Virus record (IMG/VR): IMGVR_UViG_3300029266_000804
Coordinates: 1 to 29,611 of that record
Strand: one strand, 5' to 3'
Source: a virus
DNA length: 29,611 bases
Both the position numbers and the translations under genes were made by a program. Below, one piece after another: positions 2,442-27,493 of this stretch. The stretch's first letter is position 1, and each line of letters starts with the position of its first letter. The notes under the pieces are model-generated. The model was not told where the DNA came from, ran no database searches, and was given only the letters and a program-made list of their open reading frames with translations.

Positions 2442-3539
2442 TTATTTTAAACCTATGTATTCGTGTGAATAGCATAATCTATCAGCATGTTTTATTAAAT
2501 GCTCAACAGATAACTTAGAATCTTTTCTTCTTTTTACAGAATTATATAATTCTTTTAAATAATCTTTTCTTGTTTTCATATTGTGAGAGGTATTTCTCCA
2601 TTTTTTAGATTGATTTCTATATCCACCTAAACGAATATTTGCCGTTTTGCTATAGTATTTTTTTCCTTCACTCAACATTATTTCGCCAGTTGCTTCAGAC
2701 ATTCTTGGACCAAAACCTAAACCTTGATAATCAGGACATATAACAATCCTATGCTCTCTCCAAGCATTTTTAATGGTTCCAGTTGGCATTGAAATTACGC
2801 TAGAAAATCCGATAGGTCGGTCTTCCCACCATCCAATCCAACATCGCACACCTTTATTGATGTTTCCGCTGAGATAGTGATGGTTGCTGAAATATTTCCA
2901 GACCTTTGTAGAACTTTCTTCAAGAGTGAATTTGATATTAGGTCGCCTTTGACACCCCCTAGTTAAAGTTTCTGTTGCAAGATCATATACCCAATCAGGT
3001 TCTAACCATTCTAATATATCATAATGACACGTAGCCAACACAACATTTTTAACATCAAATTTCTTTACATATCTTCCCATCGCACATGCTAAAGATATTG
3101 CAACTGTCCTATCAACGACTGATGTAAACTCATCTACTACTGCTCCAGACCGCAAGCATCTAGCCATATCCGCTCTATGTTTTTCACCAGTTGATAGAAC
3201 ATGATAAGGTTTTGTCCAAGTTGGTACACTATTAAGACCAACCGCACCCAACATTTTAGCGGCAGTTTTTGCATCTGGAAAATGACTAACGATGGCTTTA
3301 TTTGGATTCCAATCGTAAGTATATTCATTTCCAAACTTTTTTAGCAAAGTGCTTTTTCCTGTTCCAGATGGACCAACAATAACACCAATACCAAAAGAAG
3401 ATTCAACTTCTGGCATATCTGGAACTTTAAATTGAGAGTTCCCATCAAAGTCATAATCAAATATTTTTGATATCTCATCAGTTATATCGTCAAGTTCTAC
3501 TACTGAATTTAAATATTCGGTTTCTCCAAATAAACTCAT
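2442..3539 (-). CDS. ABC-type ATPase fused to GNAT acyltransferase domain
   Basis: A 365-residue two-domain protein. Residues about 50-190 are an ABC ATPase: Walker A GPSGTGKS at 56-63, signature LSTGE at 115-119, Walker B AVVDE at 133-137 and switch His172 (ATCHYD). No membrane segment is visible, so it is not a transporter. Residues about 205-315 look like a GNAT domain, with HHYLSG at 220-225 and the acyl-CoA pyrophosphate loop QGLGFG at 272-277. The C-terminal 45 residues are very basic, suggesting nucleic acid contact. ABC ATPase-acetyltransferase fusions are a recorded architecture of unknown role (COG2401-like). The GNAT enzyme Mom of phage Mu modifies adenine in DNA, and a Dam-type methylase lies just upstream here, so DNA modification is a reasonable inference but not shown. 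The start overlaps a duplicated mini-ORF that supplies the AGGA ribosome site. Confidence 0.82.
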   Translation of the reverse strand: MSLFGETEYLNSVVELDDITDEISKIFDYDFDGNSQFKVPDMPEVESSFGIGVIVGPSGTGKSTLLKKFGNEYTYDWNPNKAIVSHFPDAKTAAKMLGAVGLNSVPTWTKPYHVLSTGEKHRADMARCLRSGAVVDEFTSVVDRTVAISLACAMGRYVKKFDVKNVVLATCHYDILEWLEPDWVYDLATETLTRGCQRRPNIKFTLEESSTKVWKYFSNHHYLSGNINKGVRCWIGWWEDRPIGFSSVISMPTGTIKNAWREHRIVICPDYQGLGFGPRMSEATGEIMLSEGKKYYSKTANIRLGGYRNQSKKWRNTSHNMKTRKDYLKELYNSVKRRKDSKLSVEHLIKHADRLCYSHEYIGLK

Positions 3540-5624: not shown

Positions 5625-5951
5625 TCAGGAATCTCCCTCTTTTACAAAGATACCGTCAATCATGCGACCTTTACGATCCTTGATATCATTATAAGCAACG
5701 GTTAAGCAATCATTCATAGTAATATTGTTACGTTTCATAATATTAATCATTACAACCATCATATCACCTAAGTCATCACGAATATCATTACCCTTACATA
5801 CACTATCAGACAACTCACCTAACTCTTGCATGAGTTTCAAGACCTGATCTTTATCTGTCGAACCTTCAATTAGATTTCGATCTTCGTGCCAATCTCCAAT
5901 TTTATTCACCAATGCTGCAACGTGTAGTTTTTGCGTAGTTTCCATATTCAT
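5625..5951 (-). CDS. mazG: MazG-like nucleotide pyrophosphohydrolase
   Basis: An all-alpha NTP pyrophosphohydrolase that cleaves nucleoside triphosphates to monophosphates. The 108-residue protein has the metal-binding helix pair of the family: QELGELSD around 42-49 (Glu43, Glu46) and IRDDLGDMM around 57-65 (Asp60, Asp63). Known: marine phages often carry mazG; it was proposed to lower (p)ppGpp but also hydrolyses (d)NTPs. The ATG has AAGGGA about 7 bases upstream and its own sigma70-type promoter. An internal ATG two codons later is possible. The stop lies 47 bases before the AEP-like gene. Confidence 0.85.
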   Translation of the reverse strand: MNMETTQKLHVAALVNKIGDWHEDRNLIEGSTDKDQVLKLMQELGELSDSVCKGNDIRDDLGDMMVVMINIMKRNNITMNDCLTVAYNDIKDRKGRMIDGIFVKEGDS

Positions 5952-10447: not shown

Positions 10448-10476
10448 ATTATAGCAGATTACAAGACTTATGTCAA
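10448..10476 (-). promoter_or_regulatory. Perfect-consensus sigma70 promoter for hsp20
   Basis: Minus-strand TTGACA (10471-10476), exactly 17 bases, TATAAT (10448-10453), preceded by TGC (extended -10). It overlaps the stop codon region of the DHODH-like gene and gives a leader of about 100 bases before hsp20. Confidence 0.9.
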
Positions 10477-11157
10477 TATATTTTTTAATTTCCATGGTGT
10501 AAAACATACTGTACCTAAACTTACATAATCAGCACCTTGATCGAAATAGTATTTCGCGTCACTTTTATTCGTAACGCCACCACCAGCAATAATAGTGACA
10601 TGAGGGTGCTTTACCTTTATGTAATCTATAATCCTTGTCGTATATGGTTTCAAAATGTTACCGCTTTGACCACCATTCAAAGAATACAGAGTATTGCTTG
10701 CGTGTATCTGATTATAACCAGAATCAACTATTTTGTCAATAAGATTTTCTGAGGCAGTTGGGGGTATTTTACAAATACACCATTCTCTTTTAGTTTGGGG
10801 GAAAATATCAAAACCAGGAAGATTAACTGCGCCGATATCTTTGTCAAGATTTGGGCAACTAATATTAATTTCTACACTTGTGGTGCTTGGTACTACATAA
10901 GACAAACTGATCCAATCATTTTTGTCTATAGCAGCAAGACTCAAAACTTCTGTAGTTTTTGTCCGTTTAAGACCAGTTACAACTCCAGCGTTGCGGAGTC
11001 CAATTTTATTCACCCATCCAGATTTAGTATATCGTAGAGTTTTTAGTACTTGAGGCAGAAGTCCTGGTCTACTCTGGTACGTCCAACTTCCAGTTACACT
11101 AATAGTGTTGGGAAGTTTTATATAATTTCCAAAGGGTGCCGATATAAAATATTTCAT
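10468..11157 (-). CDS. Dihydroorotate dehydrogenase-like flavoenzyme
   Basis: A 229-residue TIM-barrel enzyme similar to DHODH, which oxidises dihydroorotate to orotate in pyrimidine synthesis. Seen: NISCPN at 98-103, matching the class 1 motif with catalytic Cys101; KIPP at 130-133 (substrate or FMN Lys130); HASNTL at 152-157; GGQSG at 162-166; and the phosphate-binding strand IIAGGGV at 189-195. It is much shorter than the usual 310-340 residues, mostly at the N-terminus, so activity or substrate may differ. The start is at 11157, just after the upstream stop; an ATG at 11193 overlaps that gene and has no ribosome site. It ends the late accessory operon, which is odd for a nucleotide synthesis gene. 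Confidence 0.82.
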   Translation of the reverse strand: MKYFISAPFGNYIKLPNTISVTGSWTYQSRPGLLPQVLKTLRYTKSGWVNKIGLRNAGVVTGLKRTKTTEVLSLAAIDKNDWISLSYVVPSTTSVEINISCPNLDKDIGAVNLPGFDIFPQTKREWCICKIPPTASENLIDKIVDSGYNQIHASNTLYSLNGGQSGNILKPYTTRIIDYIKVKHPHVTIIAGGGVTNKSDAKYYFDQGADYVSLGTVCFTPWKLKNILT

Positions 11158-11168
11158 AATGTATATAC

Positions 11169-11639
11169 TCAATTCAAAAAGATTTTGCGCCATTCTTTTT
11201 TATATTCTTCTTCATCAATACTTTTGGTAAAAGATTTTGGGAATTTTTTTATTGCTCTGAGCAATACTCTTATTTTTACATCTGCTTTGATGATAGAAAT
11301 ATTCTGACCACCATTTCTTGCTGCTAACCAACGATGATGACCATCAACAATATAGTTATCGGATGAAACAATTAATGGGTTTGCCTTGTCTATTTTCTTT
11401 AAGATACCCATGATGCTCAGTATCTTACCTAGATTAAAGTCAGATTGAGTCGCACTCAACTTTTTTGCTTTGATCTCACCCTTTTCCATCTTTATACCCA
11501 GACTTGTTAGATAAGTAAGGAGTTCTGCATAATCTTTTGGATGCACTTGGGGCATATCTAATCTTTCGATTTCAAGAGTATCCTTAGACTTAGGAGTGGT
11601 TGCCCTAAATTCTGCTATTACTTGACTATATTTACGCAT
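11169..11639 (-). CDS. ParB/sulfiredoxin-like domain protein with capsid-targeting-like leader
   Basis: A 156-residue protein with a ParB-like nuclease/NTPase core: NPLIVSSDNYIVDGHHRWLA, including the DGHHR motif of the fold. Known: this domain occurs in DNA segregation proteins, nucleases and phage proteins, so the reaction is uncertain. The N-terminus MRKYSQVIAE resembles the T4 internal-protein propeptide MKTYQEFIAE and ends in I-A-E, a gp21 protease consensus. This suggests packaging into the head and injection. It lies 15 bases after the upstream gene in the late accessory operon. Confidence 0.72.
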   Translation of the reverse strand: MRKYSQVIAEFRATTPKSKDTLEIERLDMPQVHPKDYAELLTYLTSLGIKMEKGEIKAKKLSATQSDFNLGKILSIMGILKKIDKANPLIVSSDNYIVDGHHRWLAARNGGQNISIIKADVKIRVLLRAIKKFPKSFTKSIDEEEYKKEWRKIFLN

Positions 11640-11654
11640 ATCTAATTACCTTAC

Positions 11655-12056
11655 CTATTCGTATTTTATGACTTTATCAGGCGTCTTAAAATTTTTCTTC
11701 CTCATAACAGTTTTCATCACAACGTCAAATTCGTCATTTCTCTGGTCATACTTAACAGCAACAGGAATATTTAAATCGCTCTGCATATCTTTTATAACTG
11801 CTTCAGCACCAGCAACACCTTTGATGGATTTACCTTGACGCTTGTATATCTTTTTAATAAAATCGGCAAGTTCTTTCATGCTGATGCAAGGATCATTTCT
11901 ATCATCACCCATTCTATCACCAAAATGCCTAGTGAAATTAAAATCGATTCCATATTTTTTAAACAATTTATCTACAACAGTTTCAAATGTTTTGATTTGT
12001 TTAATACCAATAAGATCGCATTTACCTTCGTCTAAATGTTGTTTAAAGTTTTTCAT
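11655..12056 (-). CDS. Late operon protein with capsid-targeting-like leader, unknown function
   Basis: A 133-residue basic protein. The N-terminus MKNFKQHLDE ends in L-D-E before Gly, fitting the gp21 cleavage rule (L/I-x-E). The body contains FTRHFGDRMGDDRND and ends VVMKTVMRKKNFKTPDKVI, a pattern I associate with conserved T4-like phage hypotheticals but cannot assign to a reaction. His, Arg and Asp in TRHFGDR could be catalytic or structural. The ATG overlaps the stop of the upstream gene (ATGA), so translation is coupled. Confidence 0.7.
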   Translation of the reverse strand: MKNFKQHLDEGKCDLIGIKQIKTFETVVDKLFKKYGIDFNFTRHFGDRMGDDRNDPCISMKELADFIKKIYKRQGKSIKGVAGAEAVIKDMQSDLNIPVAVKYDQRNDEFDVVMKTVMRKKNFKTPDKVIKYE

Positions 12057-12520
12057 TTTAGTTTTTTCAACCTTTTCAATTGGTAAACAACCCCGTGCTC
12101 ACCGTCGATTTCTTTGAAATTAAATCCCAGTTTAGATGCATATTTTTTTAATAATCTACTGTATAATTTAGACCTGCTGGGGTTTGCGCTTCCATCTGGG
12201 GTTTCTGAATGCGCTTTTGATGCTGAGAAAATAATTTCGTCAAGATTGGGATTTTCTTTAACGTAAGTTTTGATATGATTTATGACCGCACCAAAGATTT
12301 GCATTTGACTGCCCTTACCAGTAACTCGACTATGACCATTTACGTCAAAAGATATACTAAGTTCGCTGTCTTCTATCTTATATCTCAGTTCTATCTCTTG
12401 TGTTTCCACTTTACCGCTATATACTTGAATTGACCGCGAGTTATTGAACTTGGTGTCGTGTTTTAGAGTCCATTTGACTTTGGTATTAAATGCTTCACTG
12501 AACTCCTGAAATGTTTTCAT
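12053..12520 (-). CDS. Late operon protein with capsid-targeting-like leader, weakly GNAT-like
   Basis: A 155-residue protein starting MKTFQEFSEAF, very close to the T4 internal-protein leader MKTYQEFIAEA; the putative cut site is F-S-E before Ala, a near match. The C-terminal half (GSQMQIFGAVINHIKTYV, then SRSKLYSRLLKKYASKLGF) looks like the helix-strand pattern of phage proteins sometimes labelled acetyltransferase, but no clear acyl-CoA loop is visible, so I leave it unassigned. It lies directly after the SprT-like gene and overlaps the next gene by four bases. Confidence 0.7.
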   Translation of the reverse strand: MKTFQEFSEAFNTKVKWTLKHDTKFNNSRSIQVYSGKVETQEIELRYKIEDSELSISFDVNGHSRVTGKGSQMQIFGAVINHIKTYVKENPNLDEIIFSASKAHSETPDGSANPSRSKLYSRLLKKYASKLGFNFKEIDGEHGVVYQLKRLKKLK

Positions 12521-12521
12521 T

Positions 12522-13271
12522 TTAGGTAACTCCGCGTATTGCTATTATTATTTTATTTTTATTTTCTTTGAAATACGCACTAATCTCTGCAAATACGTGT
12601 GGTTCCACTGCACTAGCACCACCAAAGGTTTTTAAAGTTCTTTTGACCGAAAGCGTATGATATAGATTGGTAGGCATCACACCAACCAATAAGAGTTTAT
12701 ATCTTTTCTCTATGTGGTGTTTATACTTTGTATAATGTGCAAGGGGATCAGAGACACTTTTATTGTGTAGTGTAACAAATGCTTTATTCTCTTTATTCAC
12801 ATATAAAGAAACGATATATTCTTTGGTTTTATCCTTATATTCATCAGCAAGGTCTAATTTTCCGATTGCTTCAGTTGCAGGTATTTTCAAATTATATCTG
12901 GTGTTTAATTCTTTTAGTTTACTCATAAAAATGCTACCATGCATAACGCCATAATCATTAAGTTTTTTATGTGCAACCCAAACGTGAATCATTTCATGTA
13001 ATAATATCGAAATGATATCTTCATTTGATCTTTTCAGAGTATTCGAAATTTTAAGATGATTTATTTTTACAACTTCTTTTGTTCTTTTTAGCACTTGAAG
13101 TCCAACTTCACCACCAAGTCTTTTATTCTTGTACCAAACAATTGGAAAATCGTTGGGTAATTCGCCTTGAAAATATAATTTATTAAGAGAATTATATGAA
13201 TCCAACAAATCTAATTGAGGCATTACTTTTTCAGTGATAAGTGTTTCTACGAACTGATTGAAAGTCTTCAT
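12522..13271 (-). CDS. SprT-like zinc metalloprotease with capsid-targeting-like leader
   Basis: A 249-residue protein. Seen: zinc motif HEMIH at 92-96 in LLHEMIHVWVAH and a third ligand His111 in MHGSIF, the arrangement of SprT/Spartan-type proteases, which cleave DNA-bound proteins in eukaryotes. The leader MKTFNQFVETLITE ends in I-T-E before Lys, a gp21-type site. The C-terminal 100 residues are an unassigned alpha/beta region. An injected protease could remove host proteins from DNA or degrade a defence factor; that is inference. The ATG overlaps the stop of the HNH gene (ATGA). Confidence 0.8.
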   Translation of the reverse strand: MKTFNQFVETLITEKVMPQLDLLDSYNSLNKLYFQGELPNDFPIVWYKNKRLGGEVGLQVLKRTKEVVKINHLKISNTLKRSNEDIISILLHEMIHVWVAHKKLNDYGVMHGSIFMSKLKELNTRYNLKIPATEAIGKLDLADEYKDKTKEYIVSLYVNKENKAFVTLHNKSVSDPLAHYTKYKHHIEKRYKLLLVGVMPTNLYHTLSVKRTLKTFGGASAVEPHVFAEISAYFKENKNKIIIAIRGVT

Positions 13272-13525
13272 GTTCGTCTTCTTGGTTCAGTGCGATTGTA
13301 TTTTACGGTAACACTTGATAGATTATCTTCGTTATTATTTAAAGGATCGTTATCTTTGTGGTGGATATCTCTGCCATCGAAAGGTGCTGCTTTTCCAACT
13401 TTTTCCATTTTACGTCTAGCACGTTTTCTGGCAGCATTCCTCTCCATCTGTACTGGAGTTCCTAAGTAATTTTCACGCTCTTTCTTATAATCCCTTTCAC
13501 AAAGATATGCCTTAAAAGTCTTCAT
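13268..13525 (-). CDS. Small HNH-motif protein with capsid-targeting-like leader
   Basis: An 85-residue, strongly basic protein. Seen: an HNH-type core DIHHKDNDPLNNNEDNLSSV at 53-72 (His55/His56, Asn64/65, Asn68), as in small phage HNH nucleases, preceded by an Arg/Lys/Ala helix. The N-terminus MKTFKAYLCE matches the leader seen on neighbouring genes and ends in L-C-E, a gp21-type site. It could nick host DNA after injection, or assist packaging as some HNH proteins do. The ATG overlaps the upstream stop (ATGA). Confidence 0.78.
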   Translation of the reverse strand: MKTFKAYLCERDYKKERENYLGTPVQMERNAARKRARRKMEKVGKAAPFDGRDIHHKDNDPLNNNEDNLSSVTVKYNRTEPRRRT

Positions 13526-13755
13526 GATGCATTATCCCAAAAAGTTTTACTCATTTCACCCATAGAGACTGTGGAAGTACCAGATGCTGAATTTACTGTT
13601 TTTCGAACATCTGTATATACCGAATGACCATTGGTAGTTCTAACTCCGCTAGTTTGCTTTAACCATAGTGGTCTTAATGGACTAGTAGCGCCAGGATCAG
13701 CAGGGGCGTTGTTATATTGCCAACTTGGATTGTTTGTAATAGTTACCCATGCCAT
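13522..13755 (-). CDS. Small late protein, probable virion component
   Basis: A 77-residue protein starting MAWVTITNNPSWQYNNAP and ending GEMSKTFWDNAS; rich in Thr, Ser, Asn and Trp, with a beta-structured look. I associate this sequence type with conserved small late proteins of marine T4-like phages but cannot name a function. ATG has GGAC 6 bases upstream and lies 29 bases after a T4-type late promoter. It is the first gene of the late accessory operon, followed by four genes joined by stop/start overlaps. Confidence 0.75.
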   Translation of the reverse strand: MAWVTITNNPSWQYNNAPADPGATSPLRPLWLKQTSGVRTTNGHSVYTDVRKTVNSASGTSTVSMGEMSKTFWDNAS

Positions 13756-13783: not shown

Positions 13784-13791
13784 TATTTATA
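13784..13791 (-). promoter_or_regulatory. T4-type late promoter
   Basis: TATAAATA on the minus strand, followed by GTAAG. This is the T4 late -10 recognised by gp55. It serves the 77-residue late gene and the operon behind it. Confidence 0.8.
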
Positions 13792-13813: not shown

Positions 13814-14371
13814 TCACAAGTAAGGATTTATTATGGTTTCTATATTTTTAATAATTTTCTTATGTGTGGGACTTAGGTCTTTTCTGTCTTTTTTAACTGC
13901 ATCCAATGCAAGTTTGGTATCACCACCATATTTCTTTTGCCATGCTGGAGGTTGAAGCGCAATATCACCAACATTTGCAAGTCTGTCAGCAAGTTTAATG
14001 ACTAATGCCCAAGAGGTCATGTTGACCATTTTACCTTTGATATATTCGCCCTTGCCGCCTGCTGCTTCCAGATCATCTTTTTTAGTGGTCAATTGGTCAA
14101 CAAGATTGGCAACCAGACCACCAAACTGCTTAACTAAGTCTTCGTGAGTTAAATCAGTATCTTCTATAGTATCGTGCAAGTATGCTGCTTGGACTAATGC
14201 TGATAAGTTTTTAGAATTTGGTTTGAACTTAGCAACTATTTTGGCAACTTCTTTAGGATGTGCAATATACTCGCCACCGTTCTTTCTGAATACGCCCTTA
14301 TGCGCTTTTGTAGCAGTTCTTAATGCACTCAAAGCACTTTCGTTTATGGTATGTGATGTGAAACTCTGCAT
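13814..14371 (-). CDS. HD-domain (p)ppGpp hydrolase-like protein with capsid-targeting-like leader
   Basis: A 185-residue single-domain HD hydrolase of the SpoT/MESH1 type. Seen: ATKAHKGVFRKNGGEYIAHP (His24, His38), the HD pair in AAYLHDTIEDT (His66, Asp67, with the ED that follows) and VIKLADRL with Asp129. No synthetase, TGS or ACT domain is present, so it would only degrade alarmone, to GDP or GTP plus pyrophosphate. In LADRLHN-type motifs the His is replaced by Ala here. The leader MQSFTSHTINE ends in I-N-E before Ser, a gp21-type cut site. It starts directly after the regA stop and is downstream of a late promoter, which fits packaging in the virion. Confidence 0.85.
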   Translation of the reverse strand: MQSFTSHTINESALSALRTATKAHKGVFRKNGGEYIAHPKEVAKIVAKFKPNSKNLSALVQAAYLHDTIEDTDLTHEDLVKQFGGLVANLVDQLTTKKDDLEAAGGKGEYIKGKMVNMTSWALVIKLADRLANVGDIALQPPAWQKKYGGDTKLALDAVKKDRKDLSPTHKKIIKNIETIINPYL

Positions 14372-14785
14372 TTATTTTCTTCCTATGTTGTACTTAGGAC
14401 ATAATTCCCAATTTACTTTTTCTTTGAAAGGAATAATTTTGATTTGTCGCAGAGGTGCTAAATTTTGAGCAACCGATTCATTTTGTATTGAAACCAAACC
14501 CCAATCGGACATGAGTGTAGCAATAGTATTTCTACGCCCTATGTCACTTTCTTCCAAGTTGGACTTTTTACCATCTAGTAAAAATAATTCCTTAAAATGA
14601 ACTATAAAGTATCTGCCTTGCTTGTGCAAAATGTGGCACGATTGAAATAGTTTATTTTCTTTTCGACTCGATACGCCTATTCTTGTTAGTGTTTCTCTTA
14701 CCTTTAAAAAATCATCAGGTTCATTTAAGGTTACTTCCAACATATCAGTTGGTGACCAGTTAATTACATTAGTATCTTCATTCAT
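14372..14785 (-). CDS. regA: RegA translational repressor
   Basis: RegA binds ribosome-binding regions of early phage mRNAs and represses their translation. The protein aligns well with T4 RegA: DDFLKVRETLTRIGVSS, LFQSCHILHKQGRYFIVHFK, a RRNTIATLMSDWGL stretch and the C-terminal WELCPKYNIG. It has about 14 extra N-terminal residues if the ATG at 14785 is used; an ATG at 14743 would give the T4-like start, and neither has a strong ribosome site. It follows gene 62 as in T4, but also has its own late promoter, and is followed without a gap by the HD hydrolase gene. Confidence 0.96.
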   Translation of the reverse strand: MNEDTNVINWSPTDMLEVTLNEPDDFLKVRETLTRIGVSSRKENKLFQSCHILHKQGRYFIVHFKELFLLDGKKSNLEESDIGRRNTIATLMSDWGLVSIQNESVAQNLAPLRQIKIIPFKEKVNWELCPKYNIGRK

Positions 14786-14827
14786 TGTCAACTCACTTTT
14801 TTTTATTTATTCATTACATGACAATGC

Positions 14828-14835
14828 TATTTATA
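14828..14835 (-). promoter_or_regulatory. T4-type late promoter upstream of regA
   Basis: TATAAATA on the minus strand, followed by GCATT, between genes 62 and regA. It would give late transcription of regA and the HD hydrolase gene. Confidence 0.75.
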
Positions 14836-19498: not shown

Positions 19499-20556
19499 GC
19501 TATCTCAAGTGCTTGTGCTTCAGTCAACAAATTTCTCATTTCAATTTTAATTCTAGACTTATCTAATTCAGTTTCTACATTATCTACATAACTGTCAAGA
19601 AGGGTTGTAGTATCCTCTACAGACACGCCTTCATCCCCAACTCTGTCGCCAATAAATTCATCAAAATTCTCAGCAATTTTTAGTTCATGTATTTTCTTAC
19701 TATGTATTCTATCACATAATTTGTCGAATGTAAAGGGGTCAGATTTATTTACTACAACTAATTTAACAAACTTATCATCTAAATGTTCTACGTTGTAATT
19801 ATTATAATCGGTCTTCGTATCATCATATGTTATCTTTTCAAATAATGTGAATGGATTACGAATTGCCTCTAGTTCACGAGTCTCTGTGTCCAAAATATGA
19901 AAATGTTTTGGATCATGGGCATCAGACCAGAAAAACTCCATCTGTGTACCAAGATAAAGTATATTATCTTTCTGTGATTTGGTATGATAATGTCCAGATA
20001 ATACCATTTCAAATCTAGAAAATGCTTCTTTATCCATACCATGTTTATTCTGAATCCCTCGCATCATATCAAAACCTGATAATTCTAAATGCCCAGCAAG
20101 AAATGACGCTTTGCAATTTTTTACGAAATTCATAGATTCTTCTTGGTTCTCTGAGGTAATCCAAGGAAGCAGCGCAATATCAAGACCACCATAGTTCATC
20201 ACTGTGGGTTTCATAACGATATGAATCTCATTCATATAATGCCCAAGTAATTCTTTAAGTGAGTTTAAATCATTCGTGTTTTTGAAATAAGTGTCGTGAT
20301 TGCCAGGAATAATATCCATAGACATTCCACGTTCTCGCATAGGATTTAAAAAACTGTGGCGATTGTGAGTTAGTGCTTTGAAATTGATAAACTTACGATG
20401 GTCGTAATAATCTCCCAGATGCAATATCTGCTTTATGTTGTGTTCATCGCAATATGGAAAAAGAACTTCTCTATAAAATTTTGCAGCATTTTCTAAAAAA
20501 ATATCAGACGCATTTCTGATACCTGTGTGTGTATCATTTAGTATTAGTAACTTCAT
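19495..20556 (-). CDS. 47: Recombination nuclease subunit gp47 (Mre11-like)
   Basis: The metallophosphoesterase nuclease partner of gp46, 353 residues (T4: 339). Seen: NDTH (Asp8, His10), HLGDYYDH (Asp49), GNHD (Asn86, His87, Asp88), AGHLE (His156) and SGHYH (His189, His191): the complete two-metal site. It overlaps genes 55 and 46 by four bases each. Confidence 0.97.
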   Translation of the reverse strand: MKLLILNDTHTGIRNASDIFLENAAKFYREVLFPYCDEHNIKQILHLGDYYDHRKFINFKALTHNRHSFLNPMRERGMSMDIIPGNHDTYFKNTNDLNSLKELLGHYMNEIHIVMKPTVMNYGGLDIALLPWITSENQEESMNFVKNCKASFLAGHLELSGFDMMRGIQNKHGMDKEAFSRFEMVLSGHYHTKSQKDNILYLGTQMEFFWSDAHDPKHFHILDTETRELEAIRNPFTLFEKITYDDTKTDYNNYNVEHLDDKFVKLVVVNKSDPFTFDKLCDRIHSKKIHELKIAENFDEFIGDRVGDEGVSVEDTTTLLDSYVDNVETELDKSRIKIEMRNLLTEAQALEIA

Positions 20557-21149
20557 TCTAAAAAGTCTTTCAAATCGGAATCGACATTAACTGTTCGTTT
20601 TTTTCTTTGCTGTTTTTCTACCTTTCCAAATTCTTTTATTTCGGTGTCATACTCTTTTACTTTATCAATCCTATCTTTGAGTACATCAATAAAGTGTGTA
20701 GCAACTCCTGTGGCAGCAGCACCAGTTTCACTCACTAAAAATGCTTCTACGCCAGATTGGGACATAAATCTTTCTTTGATATCTTGTTGTTTCTTTTCTT
20801 TAGCAATTCGTCTTAGAAAAGCATACCAAATAATCTGAGTAAAATATGCGAAAGCGTTTGGTTTACCACTTCTAGTGGCAGCATTAATGTTATAGTTTTC
20901 TACTGCCTTGAGACAGTTCTCAACTGCATCCATAACCATTTCTTCACGGTAAGTGTATCTAATAAAGTTAGATTTATGGGAAAGATTCTCAGCGATTTTT
21001 AGAAAACAGAGCGCGAGATAATTTGGAACTACAGGCAATTCTTTGTCATTATCTCTTGCTTCATTTATAGTTACAACATATTCTACTATATTTGCGGAAA
21101 ATTCTTTGTTATCTACATAGTGCGTACTTTTTGATCGTGCTTTCGCCAT
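20553..21149 (-). CDS. 55: Late-transcription sigma factor gp55
   Basis: The phage sigma factor that directs host RNA polymerase to TATAAATA late promoters, 198 residues (T4: 185). Seen: the sigma core region YREEMVMDAVENCLKAVENY followed by NAFAYFTQIIWYAFLRRIAKE, and the C-terminal SDLKDFLE, which matches the T4 gp55 clamp-binding tail. ATG has AAGGAG 7 bases upstream and its own sigma70-type promoter. The late promoters found in this window are its expected targets. Confidence 0.95.
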   Translation of the reverse strand: MAKARSKSTHYVDNKEFSANIVEYVVTINEARDNDKELPVVPNYLALCFLKIAENLSHKSNFIRYTYREEMVMDAVENCLKAVENYNINAATRSGKPNAFAYFTQIIWYAFLRRIAKEKKQQDIKERFMSQSGVEAFLVSETGAAATGVATHFIDVLKDRIDKVKEYDTEIKEFGKVEKQQRKKRTVNVDSDLKDFLE

Positions 21150-24377: not shown

Positions 24378-25724
24378 TTATGCACCCAGAATGTTGTCCA
24401 CTCTGAAGATTCTGTAGTACTGGTTTGTACGTACAGTGGCAAGACCGTTTGCGGGCGCAGCGCCAACAAATGGGTTCGATACCATACCATAACGGGTTTT
24501 GAAACCAATTTTTGGTTGGAAATCGTTCTCACCAACGGCGCGAACCATGGTCAGAGGTACGTATGGGCAATAGAAGATACCAGCATCATATGCGTTTGTA
24601 CCTTTATAACCGACAGTGATATAGTCAACAGTGGCATATGGGTCAACATATACTTTTGTACGACCATTAAGAACACCAGCAAAAGTGTTACCAGTGTCAT
24701 CAACATTCAAGTTGGTTGACATTGCTGGAGCATAATCCAACATACCAGTTGCTGCCAAGCACGATGCAACATCACTGGAAGTGATGATGAAGTTACCGCG
24801 ACCTCTACGAGTTTCTTTGGCAATGTTATTTGCTTCACGCTCGATTTGGACCATGAGACCTTTAAACTTCTCTACGCTCCAACGACCATCAGCATCTGTC
24901 TGAAGATCAAACACACCATTCAGCAAGGTGTTACCAGTGGATGCACCAGTTTTTGCTTGTGAGTTAATGGTACGAATTACTTCGCGGTTGATTTCTGCAA
25001 GAATCTCAGTTGAAAGAATATTGGCAAGTTCGCTTTCAGCGTCCAGACCGTGAATTGCTTTCAAATCCTGTGCGAGTTCAAGCGAATATTCCGCTTTCAA
25101 TGCGCGTGTTTTGGCAGATACAGTTGCTTTTGAAATGGTGAAACCCATTTCAGCAAATGCGCTTGCGCCAGTTGTACCCAGCATTTCGCCATTGGCGAGA
25201 GTCATTGGTGTACCTGTGAGCGGATCAACACGTTGATCGTCAATGGTTGAGTCAGTGTCAGTGTCTGTTACACCACCAAGACCAGAACCATCTGCTAATT
25301 GAGTGCTTGCAGAATCGCCCGAATAACCAGAAACTGCTTCGCCAGTTAATGCTTCACCGTTAGCAGTAGCACCTGAACGTGTTGTTTCGTAGGTTGACTT
25401 CATGGCAAAGATCAGTCCAGTTGGACCAGTCATTGGTTGAACACCACATACGTCATATGCCATCATATTTGGCATGGCACGACGAACAAGCGAAATCAGA
25501 ACTGGGTTCCAATTAGCAACATTTGCTGTGTTGTTTGATGGTGCTGCTTCTGTCAGTTGACCGAAACCACCTTGTGCTGTTTGTTGCTCACGCAGAGCAA
25601 TTTCTTGGTTCTCAAGCACAACAGCAGTTACTGCTTTGCGGTGCTTATCTTGAATTGCGCCAGCAGATTCTTCATTCAGAACCGGGGCCCACTTTTCAAT
25701 CAATTGGTTGTAGTTCATTTCCAT
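24378..25724 (-). CDS. 23: Major capsid protein gp23
   Basis: The hexamer-forming head protein, 448 residues. Seen: an N-terminal propeptide of about 59 residues with the gp21 cut site QLTE before AAPS (Leu57-Thr58-Glu59), then NVANWNPVLISLVRRAMPNM, a marker stretch of T4-like gp23, GPTGLIFAMKSTY and the C-terminal DNILGA. After cleavage the mature protein is about 389 residues, shorter than T4's. Strong AAGGAG upstream; 12 bases after gene 22. Confidence 0.97.
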   Translation of the reverse strand: MEMNYNQLIEKWAPVLNEESAGAIQDKHRKAVTAVVLENQEIALREQQTAQGGFGQLTEAAPSNNTANVANWNPVLISLVRRAMPNMMAYDVCGVQPMTGPTGLIFAMKSTYETTRSGATANGEALTGEAVSGYSGDSASTQLADGSGLGGVTDTDTDSTIDDQRVDPLTGTPMTLANGEMLGTTGASAFAEMGFTISKATVSAKTRALKAEYSLELAQDLKAIHGLDAESELANILSTEILAEINREVIRTINSQAKTGASTGNTLLNGVFDLQTDADGRWSVEKFKGLMVQIEREANNIAKETRRGRGNFIITSSDVASCLAATGMLDYAPAMSTNLNVDDTGNTFAGVLNGRTKVYVDPYATVDYITVGYKGTNAYDAGIFYCPYVPLTMVRAVGENDFQPKIGFKTRYGMVSNPFVGAAPANGLATVRTNQYYRIFRVDNILGA

Positions 25725-25736
25725 TATGGATACTCC

Positions 25737-26828
25737 TTAATTACTTGCTTTAATAGCGGCAACATATTGCGCCATACTATTTGATACGTTTACGTCTACA
25801 TCCGTATCTTCTTGGGTTTCTTCTGTAAGTGTTTCTTCTACAATAGCAGCAGGTGCGACTGCTGGTTTACCGTGGAAGTAAGACTCTTTGATGGTCTCGA
25901 CTTTAAATTTGAAATTTTCTTCAGTTTCAAATTCTACGCCTTCAACCAGTTTTTCCAATTTAGATGCTTCAGTACTAGCAAGATCATTTGCTGCTTCTAC
26001 AATAATTGCAGCGCGTTTCAAATTAGAAATTGCTTCGTTCATATCAACATTATTTTGGGTTTGCTTATTCAAAAGTTCTTCTAGTTCTTGAACTTCTTCT
26101 GCAAGTTGGTCTACTAGGTCAACTTTGGTTTCTGGAACTTCGATGTAAGATTCTACAAACAGGTCTTTCAACTTGCCCATGAAACCTTCAGCGATTTCCG
26201 ACCGAATACCATGCTCTACAGCAATACGGTTTTCTTCAACCCATTGTTCGACAACGTAGTTTAAATAAGAATCAATCTTGTCTACAAGGTCACCCTTTGC
26301 TTCTGTGATTGCTTCTTCAGTCTCTGTAGCATATTGCTCTTCCAGAGAATAGACTTTTTCACCAAATTCCTCATCCAATTCTTGAATTCTAGTTGCAACT
26401 CTTGTAGTAAGTGCTGCCTCAAAAATTGTACTTGCTTTTGCTTTAAAGTCTTCTGATAGAGATTCATCAGCAGAAATTAGGACTTCTAAATCAGCACTGG
26501 TAGTATCTTCTACCATTGCAACATCGTCTTCCATTTCTACTTCTACTTCTTCACCCATCATTTTTTCATATGCTGCTTTGATTTCAGTCTTGGTTTTCAT
26601 ACCATTCATTTTATCAGTCATAGCATTGACCATTCCCGCCTTAGTCTTAGGAGGGGATGCTTTTTTAGTAACTTTGCTTGCGAGTGCTACAGATTGCACA
26701 GAATCATCTTCTGCGCCTTCTGGATCATCCGAAAGTGATGCTTCCGCTACCATTACTTCTTCGTGAGATTCCACAATTTCGTTGTCATCATGGACCTCAA
26801 GTTCCTGTTCGTTATTTTGATCAGTCAT
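25737..26828 (-). CDS. 22: Prohead core scaffold gp22
   Basis: The main internal scaffold of the prohead, degraded by gp21 during maturation. The 363-residue protein is highly acidic with long helices and coiled coils (for example VQELEELLNKQTQNNVDMNE). It sits between the protease and capsid genes as in T4 and is longer than T4 gp22 (269). Recognised mainly by position and composition. AAGGAG lies 6 bases before the ATG. Confidence 0.88.
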   Translation of the reverse strand: MTDQNNEQELEVHDDNEIVESHEEVMVAEASLSDDPEGAEDDSVQSVALASKVTKKASPPKTKAGMVNAMTDKMNGMKTKTEIKAAYEKMMGEEVEVEMEDDVAMVEDTTSADLEVLISADESLSEDFKAKASTIFEAALTTRVATRIQELDEEFGEKVYSLEEQYATETEEAITEAKGDLVDKIDSYLNYVVEQWVEENRIAVEHGIRSEIAEGFMGKLKDLFVESYIEVPETKVDLVDQLAEEVQELEELLNKQTQNNVDMNEAISNLKRAAIIVEAANDLASTEASKLEKLVEGVEFETEENFKFKVETIKESYFHGKPAVAPAAIVEETLTEETQEDTDVDVNVSNSMAQYVAAIKASN

Positions 26829-26842
26829 ACTTGACTCCTTTT

Positions 26843-27493
26843 TTATTTCAGCAACGAGAGGAAATTTTCAAACCCACGAATTTGCGCTTCTTGCAAACCT
26901 TTTGATGGAGTTCTTTTTATTTCAGTCTCTATTTTTTCAATTTCTTGAGGTTTAATCATTCCATTATCCCATACCCATTCAACACCTTCCATAATGCCAT
27001 TTACAAAAGCATTAGGTGCACTTGGGTCTTGAACAATGTCAACGGTGTTAAGAATAAAATCTTCCTTAACTTCCATTATCCCATTACGTTTCTCAAGACT
27101 TCCCATACCACGAGTCGAAACACCTAGTTGACAACCACCATCCAGCAAACCTTTTACAATTTTACCCATAGGAGTGTCTAATATAAGTGCTTTACCCATC
27201 ACATCATTTCCTTCAAATTGAAGTTCTGTAATACGATGGGATACCTTGTCCAAATTAACTGTTGGTCCTTCAGGATGATTTAACTCACCTACAGCACGAC
27301 CAGTGCTAACTTGTTCTTTTACATATTTGTTAACAGCATTTTCCATAACTGCTTTTGGATACATTCTTTTGTTGCGGTTCGCTGCTTCTGCCTGAGCAAA
27401 CACGCCTTCTATCTGATAAGTTTTTTCACCGTTAGCATTTGCTTCCGTGATTAAGTTTAATGCACCGTCACAGTACTCAGCAATCAGTTTCAT
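26843..27493 (-). CDS. 21: Prohead protease gp21
   Basis: The serine protease that cleaves capsid, scaffold and internal proteins after Glu in L/I-x-E sites. Seen: ELNHPEGP (His73), GVSTRGMG (Ser126) and VQDPSAPNA (Asp156), the prohead protease active site. The 216-residue length matches T4. Its own start MKLIAEYCDGALNLITEA contains a possible self-cleavage site (I-T-E before Ala). It would also cut the leader-bearing accessory proteins in this window. Confidence 0.96.
   Translation of the reverse strand: MKLIAEYCDGALNLITEANANGEKTYQIEGVFAQAEAANRNKRMYPKAVMENAVNKYVKEQVSTGRAVGELNHPEGPTVNLDKVSHRITELQFEGNDVMGKALILDTPMGKIVKGLLDGGCQLGVSTRGMGSLEKRNGIMEVKEDFILNTVDIVQDPSAPNAFVNGIMEGVEWVWDNGMIKPQEIEKIETEIKRTPSKGLQEAQIRGFENFLSLLK

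Follow-up and report, generated by a model that had tools for sequence, protein, structure and literature searches.

The window analyzed here, a whole stretch of 29.6 kb (36% GC) from a virus record of IMG/VR, carried a T4-like phage gene set marked by gp23, a gp22-like scaffold, an S77 prohead protease, a gp55-like late sigma factor and regA, together with a sliding clamp, a tail tube and clamp loader subunits (Table 1). Within it, a gene encoding a small alarmone hydrolase-like protein starts where the regA stop codon ends, so that regA and the hydrolase are probably co-transcribed. The locus does not fit a toxSAS antitoxin (SAH type), which presupposes an adjacent toxic synthetase: no synthetase was identified among the window proteins scanned, and the neighbors of the hydrolase are regA and a 77-aa ORF without assignment.

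Table 1. Features of the hydrolase locus and of the predicted head-processing genes, in window positions (↓, predicted or expected scissile bond).
Feature	Position	Strand	Details
Small alarmone hydrolase-like protein (RSH-type HD domain)	13814..14371	−	185 aa + stop, ATG start
Ribosome-binding site AGGAAG	14379..14384	−	7 bases before the hydrolase ATG, inside the regA 3′ end; direct reading
Leader MQSFTSHTINE, predicted capsid-targeting sequence	14339..14371	−	Site I-N-E↓S, scissile bond at codons 11/12
regA translational repressor	14372..14786	−	phrog_242, E 6e-59
TATAAATA, T4-type late promoter upstream of regA-hydrolase	14828..14835	−	Kept in 19/19 close relatives
TATAAATA, late promoter upstream of the following genes	13784..13791	−	Some of these genes leader-bearing
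HNH protein	13268..13525	−	Leader MKTFKAYLCE; packaging candidate
SprT-like metalloprotease-fold protein	12522..13271	−	Leader MKTFNQFVETLITE; packaging candidate
Protein without assigned function	12053..12520	−	N-terminus MKTFQEFSE; weaker packaging candidate
Module without assigned function	11655..12056	−	Leader MKNFKQHLDE
ParB-like protein	11169..11639	−	Leader MRKYSQVIAE; packaging candidate
gp55-like late sigma factor	20553..21149	−	Needed for TATAAATA promoter use; phrog_234, E 1.2e-50
gp23-like major capsid protein	24378..25724	−	Expected cleavage QLTE↓A by T4 homology
gp22-like scaffold	25737..26828	−	[LI]xE sites 15 vs 6.9 expected (enriched)
gp21-like prohead core protease (Peptidase_S77)	26843..27493	−	Predicted processing enzyme; E 9.4e-43

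The hydrolase was matched above cut-off by Pfam HD_4 (E 1.9e-13), over its HD part only by TIGR00691 spoT_relA (E 6.6e-24, far short of the full-length cut-off) and by PHROG 990 "metal-dependent phosphohydrolase", and its best PDB matches by sequence were Rel, SpoT and MESH1. The AlphaFold model reached a mean pLDDT of 90 with residues 1–8 disordered, and its nearest solved folds were human MESH1 (3nr1) and the P. aeruginosa SAH (6yvc), at TM 0.75–0.80. H38, H66, D67, D129, R29, E70, D71 and N133 were invariant in an alignment of 31 homologues; mapped onto the RSH motifs known from Rel and MESH1, H38, H66-D67 and D129 correspond to the metal ligands and R29, E70-D71 and N133 the catalytic residues. 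Profile search of the 185 aa returned HD families only, with no synthetase, TGS or ACT domain. The profiles and the alignment thus agree with what had been read from the sequence alone, a single-domain HD protein with complete SpoT/MESH1-type ligands and no synthetase part. Where computable, dN/dS among close relatives was about 0.01–0.06, with most pairs at 0.03–0.06 and synonymous sites near saturation in the more distant pairs, indicating that the gene is strongly constrained. No bacterial relative exceeded about 43% identity, a distance that identifies neither the host nor a recent donor. It is improbable that the HD protein uses a different nucleotide (e.g. NADPH or some other pyrophosphate) in place of alarmones: NADPH is a reported substrate of MESH1, and promiscuity has been described for some SAHs (PMC9765508), but the best profile scores went to the hydrolase domains of MESH1, Rel and SpoT, all known alarmone hydrolases, and the full RSH HD motif set is present.

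The N-terminus of the protein reads, as the earlier reading had it, as a leader ending in INE before Ser. Removal of this leader would leave a predicted mature hydrolase of 174 aa from Ser12; the sole other start codon ahead of the HD domain is a TTG at codon 14. Relatives were collected from IMG/VR (79 loci, 49–100% identity), and clustering at 90% gave 20 T4-like clusters; the close relatives of the window hydrolase are all uncultured. In 20/20 of these non-redundant clusters a Glu preceded the first domain His by 13 residues (in one case 14), and in 0/13 control hydrolases, taken from other public phages or from records further away; the counts across relatives are not phylogenetically independent. 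The motif at this position was [LIFM]-x-E followed by S, D, N or G in solo proteins and polyproteins alike, and solo leaders ranged from MQSFTSHTINE↓S to MKTFKKFISEDTLNE↓S. Conservation of the Glu whatever lies upstream argues that the leader is more than chance and favors the gp21-type cleavage site that had been predicted there.

Capsid-targeting sequences of T4 are propeptides of 10–19 residues with targeting residues 4 and 7, cut after L/I-x-E, and in T4 IPIII an Asp in place of the Glu at the cut prevents processing (PMC9026906). The hydrolase leader fits these rules in its length, in the aromatic residue at position 4 and in L/I-x-E, with His at residue 7 as in several relatives; it is less canonical than the leaders of its relatives, having His at 7, Thr at 8 and 11 residues instead of 10. 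In the structural model Glu11 sits within the first helix (residues 7–23), so that the INE↓S site would have to be exposed in the prohead. The putative processing enzyme, the S77 protease, was present in 10/24 sampled relative contigs and in 5/6 of those >100 kb, and gp23 of most sampled relatives, as in the window, carried a matching cleavage site by homology, e.g. QLTE↓A.

The window hydrolase is solo, one polypeptide without the several effector domains that define a polyvalent protein, and in some relatives (L027, L049, L066, L067, L071, L073 and L076) the hydrolase was a module of a long multi-module protein of 590–1385 aa. When the fused forms were searched for cleavage-type sites ([LIVMF]xE[ASGTND]), 17 were found in 434 aa upstream of the hydrolase domain and 15 in 455 aa downstream, against 0 in 7369 aa inside it, and 12/13 fused members had a downstream site. 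Marine solo hydrolases stop at ...IKEYV, where fused forms run on as ...IKEYVTE↓S/G. The shorter motif [LI]xE occurred 3 times in T4-like hydrolase domains, with 18.6 expected from composition, compared with 16 against 19.7 in other phages and 61 against 98.6 in bacterial domains. Since bacterial HD domains are mildly depleted too, part of this depletion is fold-driven; we read it as probable selection against cutting by the head protease, in a set of related and hence not independent sequences. The polyproteins of L066, L067, L071, L073 and L076 (790–1385 aa), which belong to freshwater-type phages, have modules parted by repeated (Q)GVAE-like sites and are apparently processed by the head protease.

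Leader-like N-termini were found on 214/1052 ORFs of the hydrolase loci, against 11 after shuffling. By family, they were present on the hydrolase (57/66), a CCA-adding enzyme (13/14), a DUF6267 protein (16/22) and a 133-aa module (13/14), and were absent from the clamp, clamp-loader, regA, gp46 and gp47 families of these loci. The predicted leader is concentrated in accessory families and is common to unrelated neighbor genes. A module like the one at window 11655..12056 was fused to the hydrolase in L049 and lay within the same polyprotein as the hydrolase in L027, and the window cluster of SprT-like, ParB-like and HNH proteins and this module probably comprises other injected effectors. The CCA-adding/poly(A) polymerase enzyme (L009:6916-8136; PF01743, PF12627) lies a short way downstream of the hydrolase and has the leader MKSFISHLNE↓S, and the same enzyme occurred in 12 more relatives (L003–L007, L011–L016, L051); no CCA-adding gene was found in the window. 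By its leader, this enzyme is a second candidate for packaging that would act on tRNA ends. A class 3 lipase gene was also found near the leader cluster of L004 (8639-9406), and a lipoprotein-lipase-like protein has been reported in S-CREM1 virions (PMC9964418).

The virion proteome of cyanophage S-CREM2 has been published by mass spectrometry, in a report whose authors could not exclude co-purification (PMC10665884). A leader rule derived from the T4 facts (an aromatic residue at position 4, then [LIVM]xE by about residue 22) fitted 4/24 virion-detected proteins that are non-structural or function-unassigned and 2/115 undetected ones (p = 0.008). Three of the four annotated non-lysis enzymes detected in the virion obeyed it, namely a SAM hydrolase (MKDFDSFLEE), an APH-like kinase (MKRFDAFLTE) and a cytidylyltransferase (MKNFSSFLTE). 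The strict rule was kept for the count, so that the near-matching virion proteins ORF13 (MKDLHSFLTE) and ORF136 (MQTFSMFFSE) were missed. With the co-purification caveat of the authors, such leaders do mark enzymes recovered with T4-like virions. The Cas9-like nuclease of S-CREM2 has LRFASFMAE↓A at residues 17–25.

All six copies of TATAAATA in the window lie on the coding strand, and 5/6 were intergenic, with 0.43 expected (maximum 3 in 2000 simulations). The intergenic copies precede the head genes, the tail tube, the gene at 13755 and the regA-hydrolase pair. The TATAAATA ahead of this pair was conserved in 19/19 close relatives, though the sequence just upstream diverges. As a class, leader genes were not enriched for a TATAAATA directly upstream (0.106 vs 0.113, p 0.88), probably because most sit inside operons, and the promoter evidence used here is confined to the copies in the window and those before regA-hydrolase. 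The predicted promoter favors late expression of the hydrolase, and early or middle transcription in addition is possible. The sequence-only reading had taken late synthesis as grounds for refuting packaging; this was mistaken, since packaging into the prohead needs late production, and a conserved late promoter is what was found.

Leaderless phage homologues exist, in Vibrio phage pv27 and in BcepSauron, and in the tree both are nested inside the group, which has no single clean leader origin but 2–3 changes. The pv27 hydrolase is leaderless despite an S77 protease in the same phage, indicating that packaging is not the rule for the hydrolase family. In T4, regA is an early/middle gene, and co-transcription with it could mean intracellular use. 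An ordinary, unpackaged intracellular alarmone hydrolase with an incidental N-terminal tail is nevertheless unlikely, given the cleavage motif conserved in solo and fused forms, the leader shared with unrelated genes, the site avoidance, the polyprotein architecture and the late promoter.

Those same lines of evidence, leader conservation included, agree with the packaging proposed at the outset, and it is very likely, as predicted from these genomes, that the hydrolase is packaged and trimmed by gp21. It would be transcribed late together with regA, and its 11-residue leader would direct it to the assembling prohead core, where the gp21-type S77 protease would cut after INE to give the mature 174-aa HD enzyme, whose N-terminus would lie near the natural starts of leaderless phage hydrolases. 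The hydrolase would then go into the host along with the DNA and remove 3′-pyrophosphates from host (p)ppGpp and/or from toxSAS products (pyrophosphorylated tRNA 3′ ends, (p)ppApp). We infer four of these steps: that the protein is targeted to the core, that the cut falls after Glu11, that the enzyme is injected and that it hydrolyzes 3′-pyrophosphates. Taken as a whole, the explanation that we consider probable is an internal head protein of the small alarmone hydrolase type that is cut, injected and removes 3′-pyrophosphates.

Host (p)ppGpp is one candidate substrate of the packaged hydrolase, and toxSAS products are as likely. Lowering of pre-existing host (p)ppGpp right upon injection, which would open starved cells to infection, is possible: marine hosts are often nutrient-limited, and the RSH-type active site is nearest to those of Rel/SpoT and MESH1. 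The earlier proposal that this happens before any phage gene is expressed presupposes enough injected copies, however. T4 carries about 300 copies of each internal protein (PMC9026906), and by a rough estimate clearing the full stringent pool at T4-like copy numbers could take minutes, not the moment of injection.

Counter-defence as the main job, with the packaged hydrolase clearing the tRNA 3′-end pyrophosphate or (p)ppApp made by toxSAS/CapRel-type systems, is a possibility that we hold tentatively and at the same level. The phage SSU5 hydrolase PaSpo reverses the tRNA pyrophosphorylation of FaRel2 (PMC11559606) and has been co-expressed to protect cells making CapRel (PMC9712102). CapRel occurs in cyanobacteria and proteobacteria and is triggered by newly made capsid protein (PMC9712102); the window hydrolase is predicted to be late. 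The T4 internal proteins Ip1-3 are all counter-defence proteins (PMC12373910). A function at tRNA 3′ ends would go well with the leader-bearing CCA-adding enzyme that follows the hydrolase in 13 relatives, but the window has no CCA-adding gene, PaSpo falls in a different clade of the tree, the sequence does not give substrate preference and no toxSAS is tied to the hydrolase. A broader scenario is doubtful, namely that marine and freshwater T4-like phages inject a packaged set of enzymes for the repair or protection of translation early in infection, some of them made as polyproteins that the head protease cuts apart, with the hydrolase and a packaged CCA-adding enzyme restoring tRNA 3′ ends attacked by toxSAS.

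Compared with known enzymes, the window hydrolase shares with MESH1, the P. aeruginosa SAH and SSU5 PaSpo a single RSH-type HD domain, equal metal and catalytic residues and the predicted fold. In the tree, phage sequences dominate the clade of the T4-like hydrolases, which is separate from bacterial Rel/SpoT and from PaSpo, and the SSU5 and Klebsiella phage SAHs belong to another clade. The control phage SAHs lack the prohead-protease leader that the T4-like hydrolases have, and the LxE depletion is likewise a feature of the latter, unlike the small alarmone hydrolases compared. With T4 IPI-IPIII and Alt, the hydrolase shares a short leader with an aromatic residue at 4 and (L/I)xE, an S77 protease in the genome and a predicted late promoter; IPI-IPIII are small restriction inhibitors and Alt is an ADP-ribosyltransferase, none being a nucleotide-signal hydrolase, and for the window hydrolase presence in the virion is a prediction. 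The S-CREM2 virion enzymes are also from a T4-like phage and have the same kind of leader, MKxFxxFLxE, with detection in virions (PMC10665884), but they have other chemistry, and no such hydrolase is annotated in S-CREM2.

Polyvalent proteins are multi-domain and thought to be packaged, cut and injected (PMC5512222), and among the relatives here the hydrolase forms one module of proteins of this kind. Their parts are separated by a built-in protease, whereas the hydrolase polyproteins would be cut by the head protease. The polyvalent survey describes RelA/SpoT synthetase domains, with no "HD domain" in its text, and the hydrolase would have the opposite activity (PMC5512222). HD-alarmone PDEases of jumbo phages are, like the window hydrolase, predicted to counter nucleotide signals, and the passage describing them ties them to neither a capsid-targeting leader nor the virion (PMC7824862). 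That injected proteins may destroy nucleotide signals has been predicted before (PMC5512222, PMC7824862). The claim of novelty stands in part: no description of a virion-borne alarmone hydrolase was found in the open-access literature, but PaSpo, the jumbo-phage PDEases and predicted virion-delivered signal-degrading enzymes were already known. Each half has precedents, one in phage alarmone hydrolases and the other in T4 internal proteins, and the two in combination appear undescribed in that literature.

If the packaged hydrolase acts as proposed, it would have, as far as found, no earlier counterpart among virion-delivered enzymes that target a pyrophosphate alarm or toxin signal, and it would work ahead of the first response of the host or while that response is under way. 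The injected proteome of abundant aquatic phages would then be tied directly to the stringent response or to toxSAS immunity. The leader, a late promoter and the absence of internal protease sites together offer a testable rule for packaged effectors in uncultured T4-like phages.

The window also carried genes of central metabolism that are unusual for a phage, encoding an ATP-type PEP carboxykinase (2-1090; PF01293, E 4e-87), a possible class I aldolase-like protein (1609-2409, below cut-off) and a dihydroorotate dehydrogenase-like protein (10468-11193). A MazG-like pyrophosphatase without leader, of an enzyme type often linked to ppGpp, was encoded at 5625-5951, and an ABC-type ATPase fused to a GNAT acetyltransferase domain (phrog_11143, no known function) at 2442-3539.
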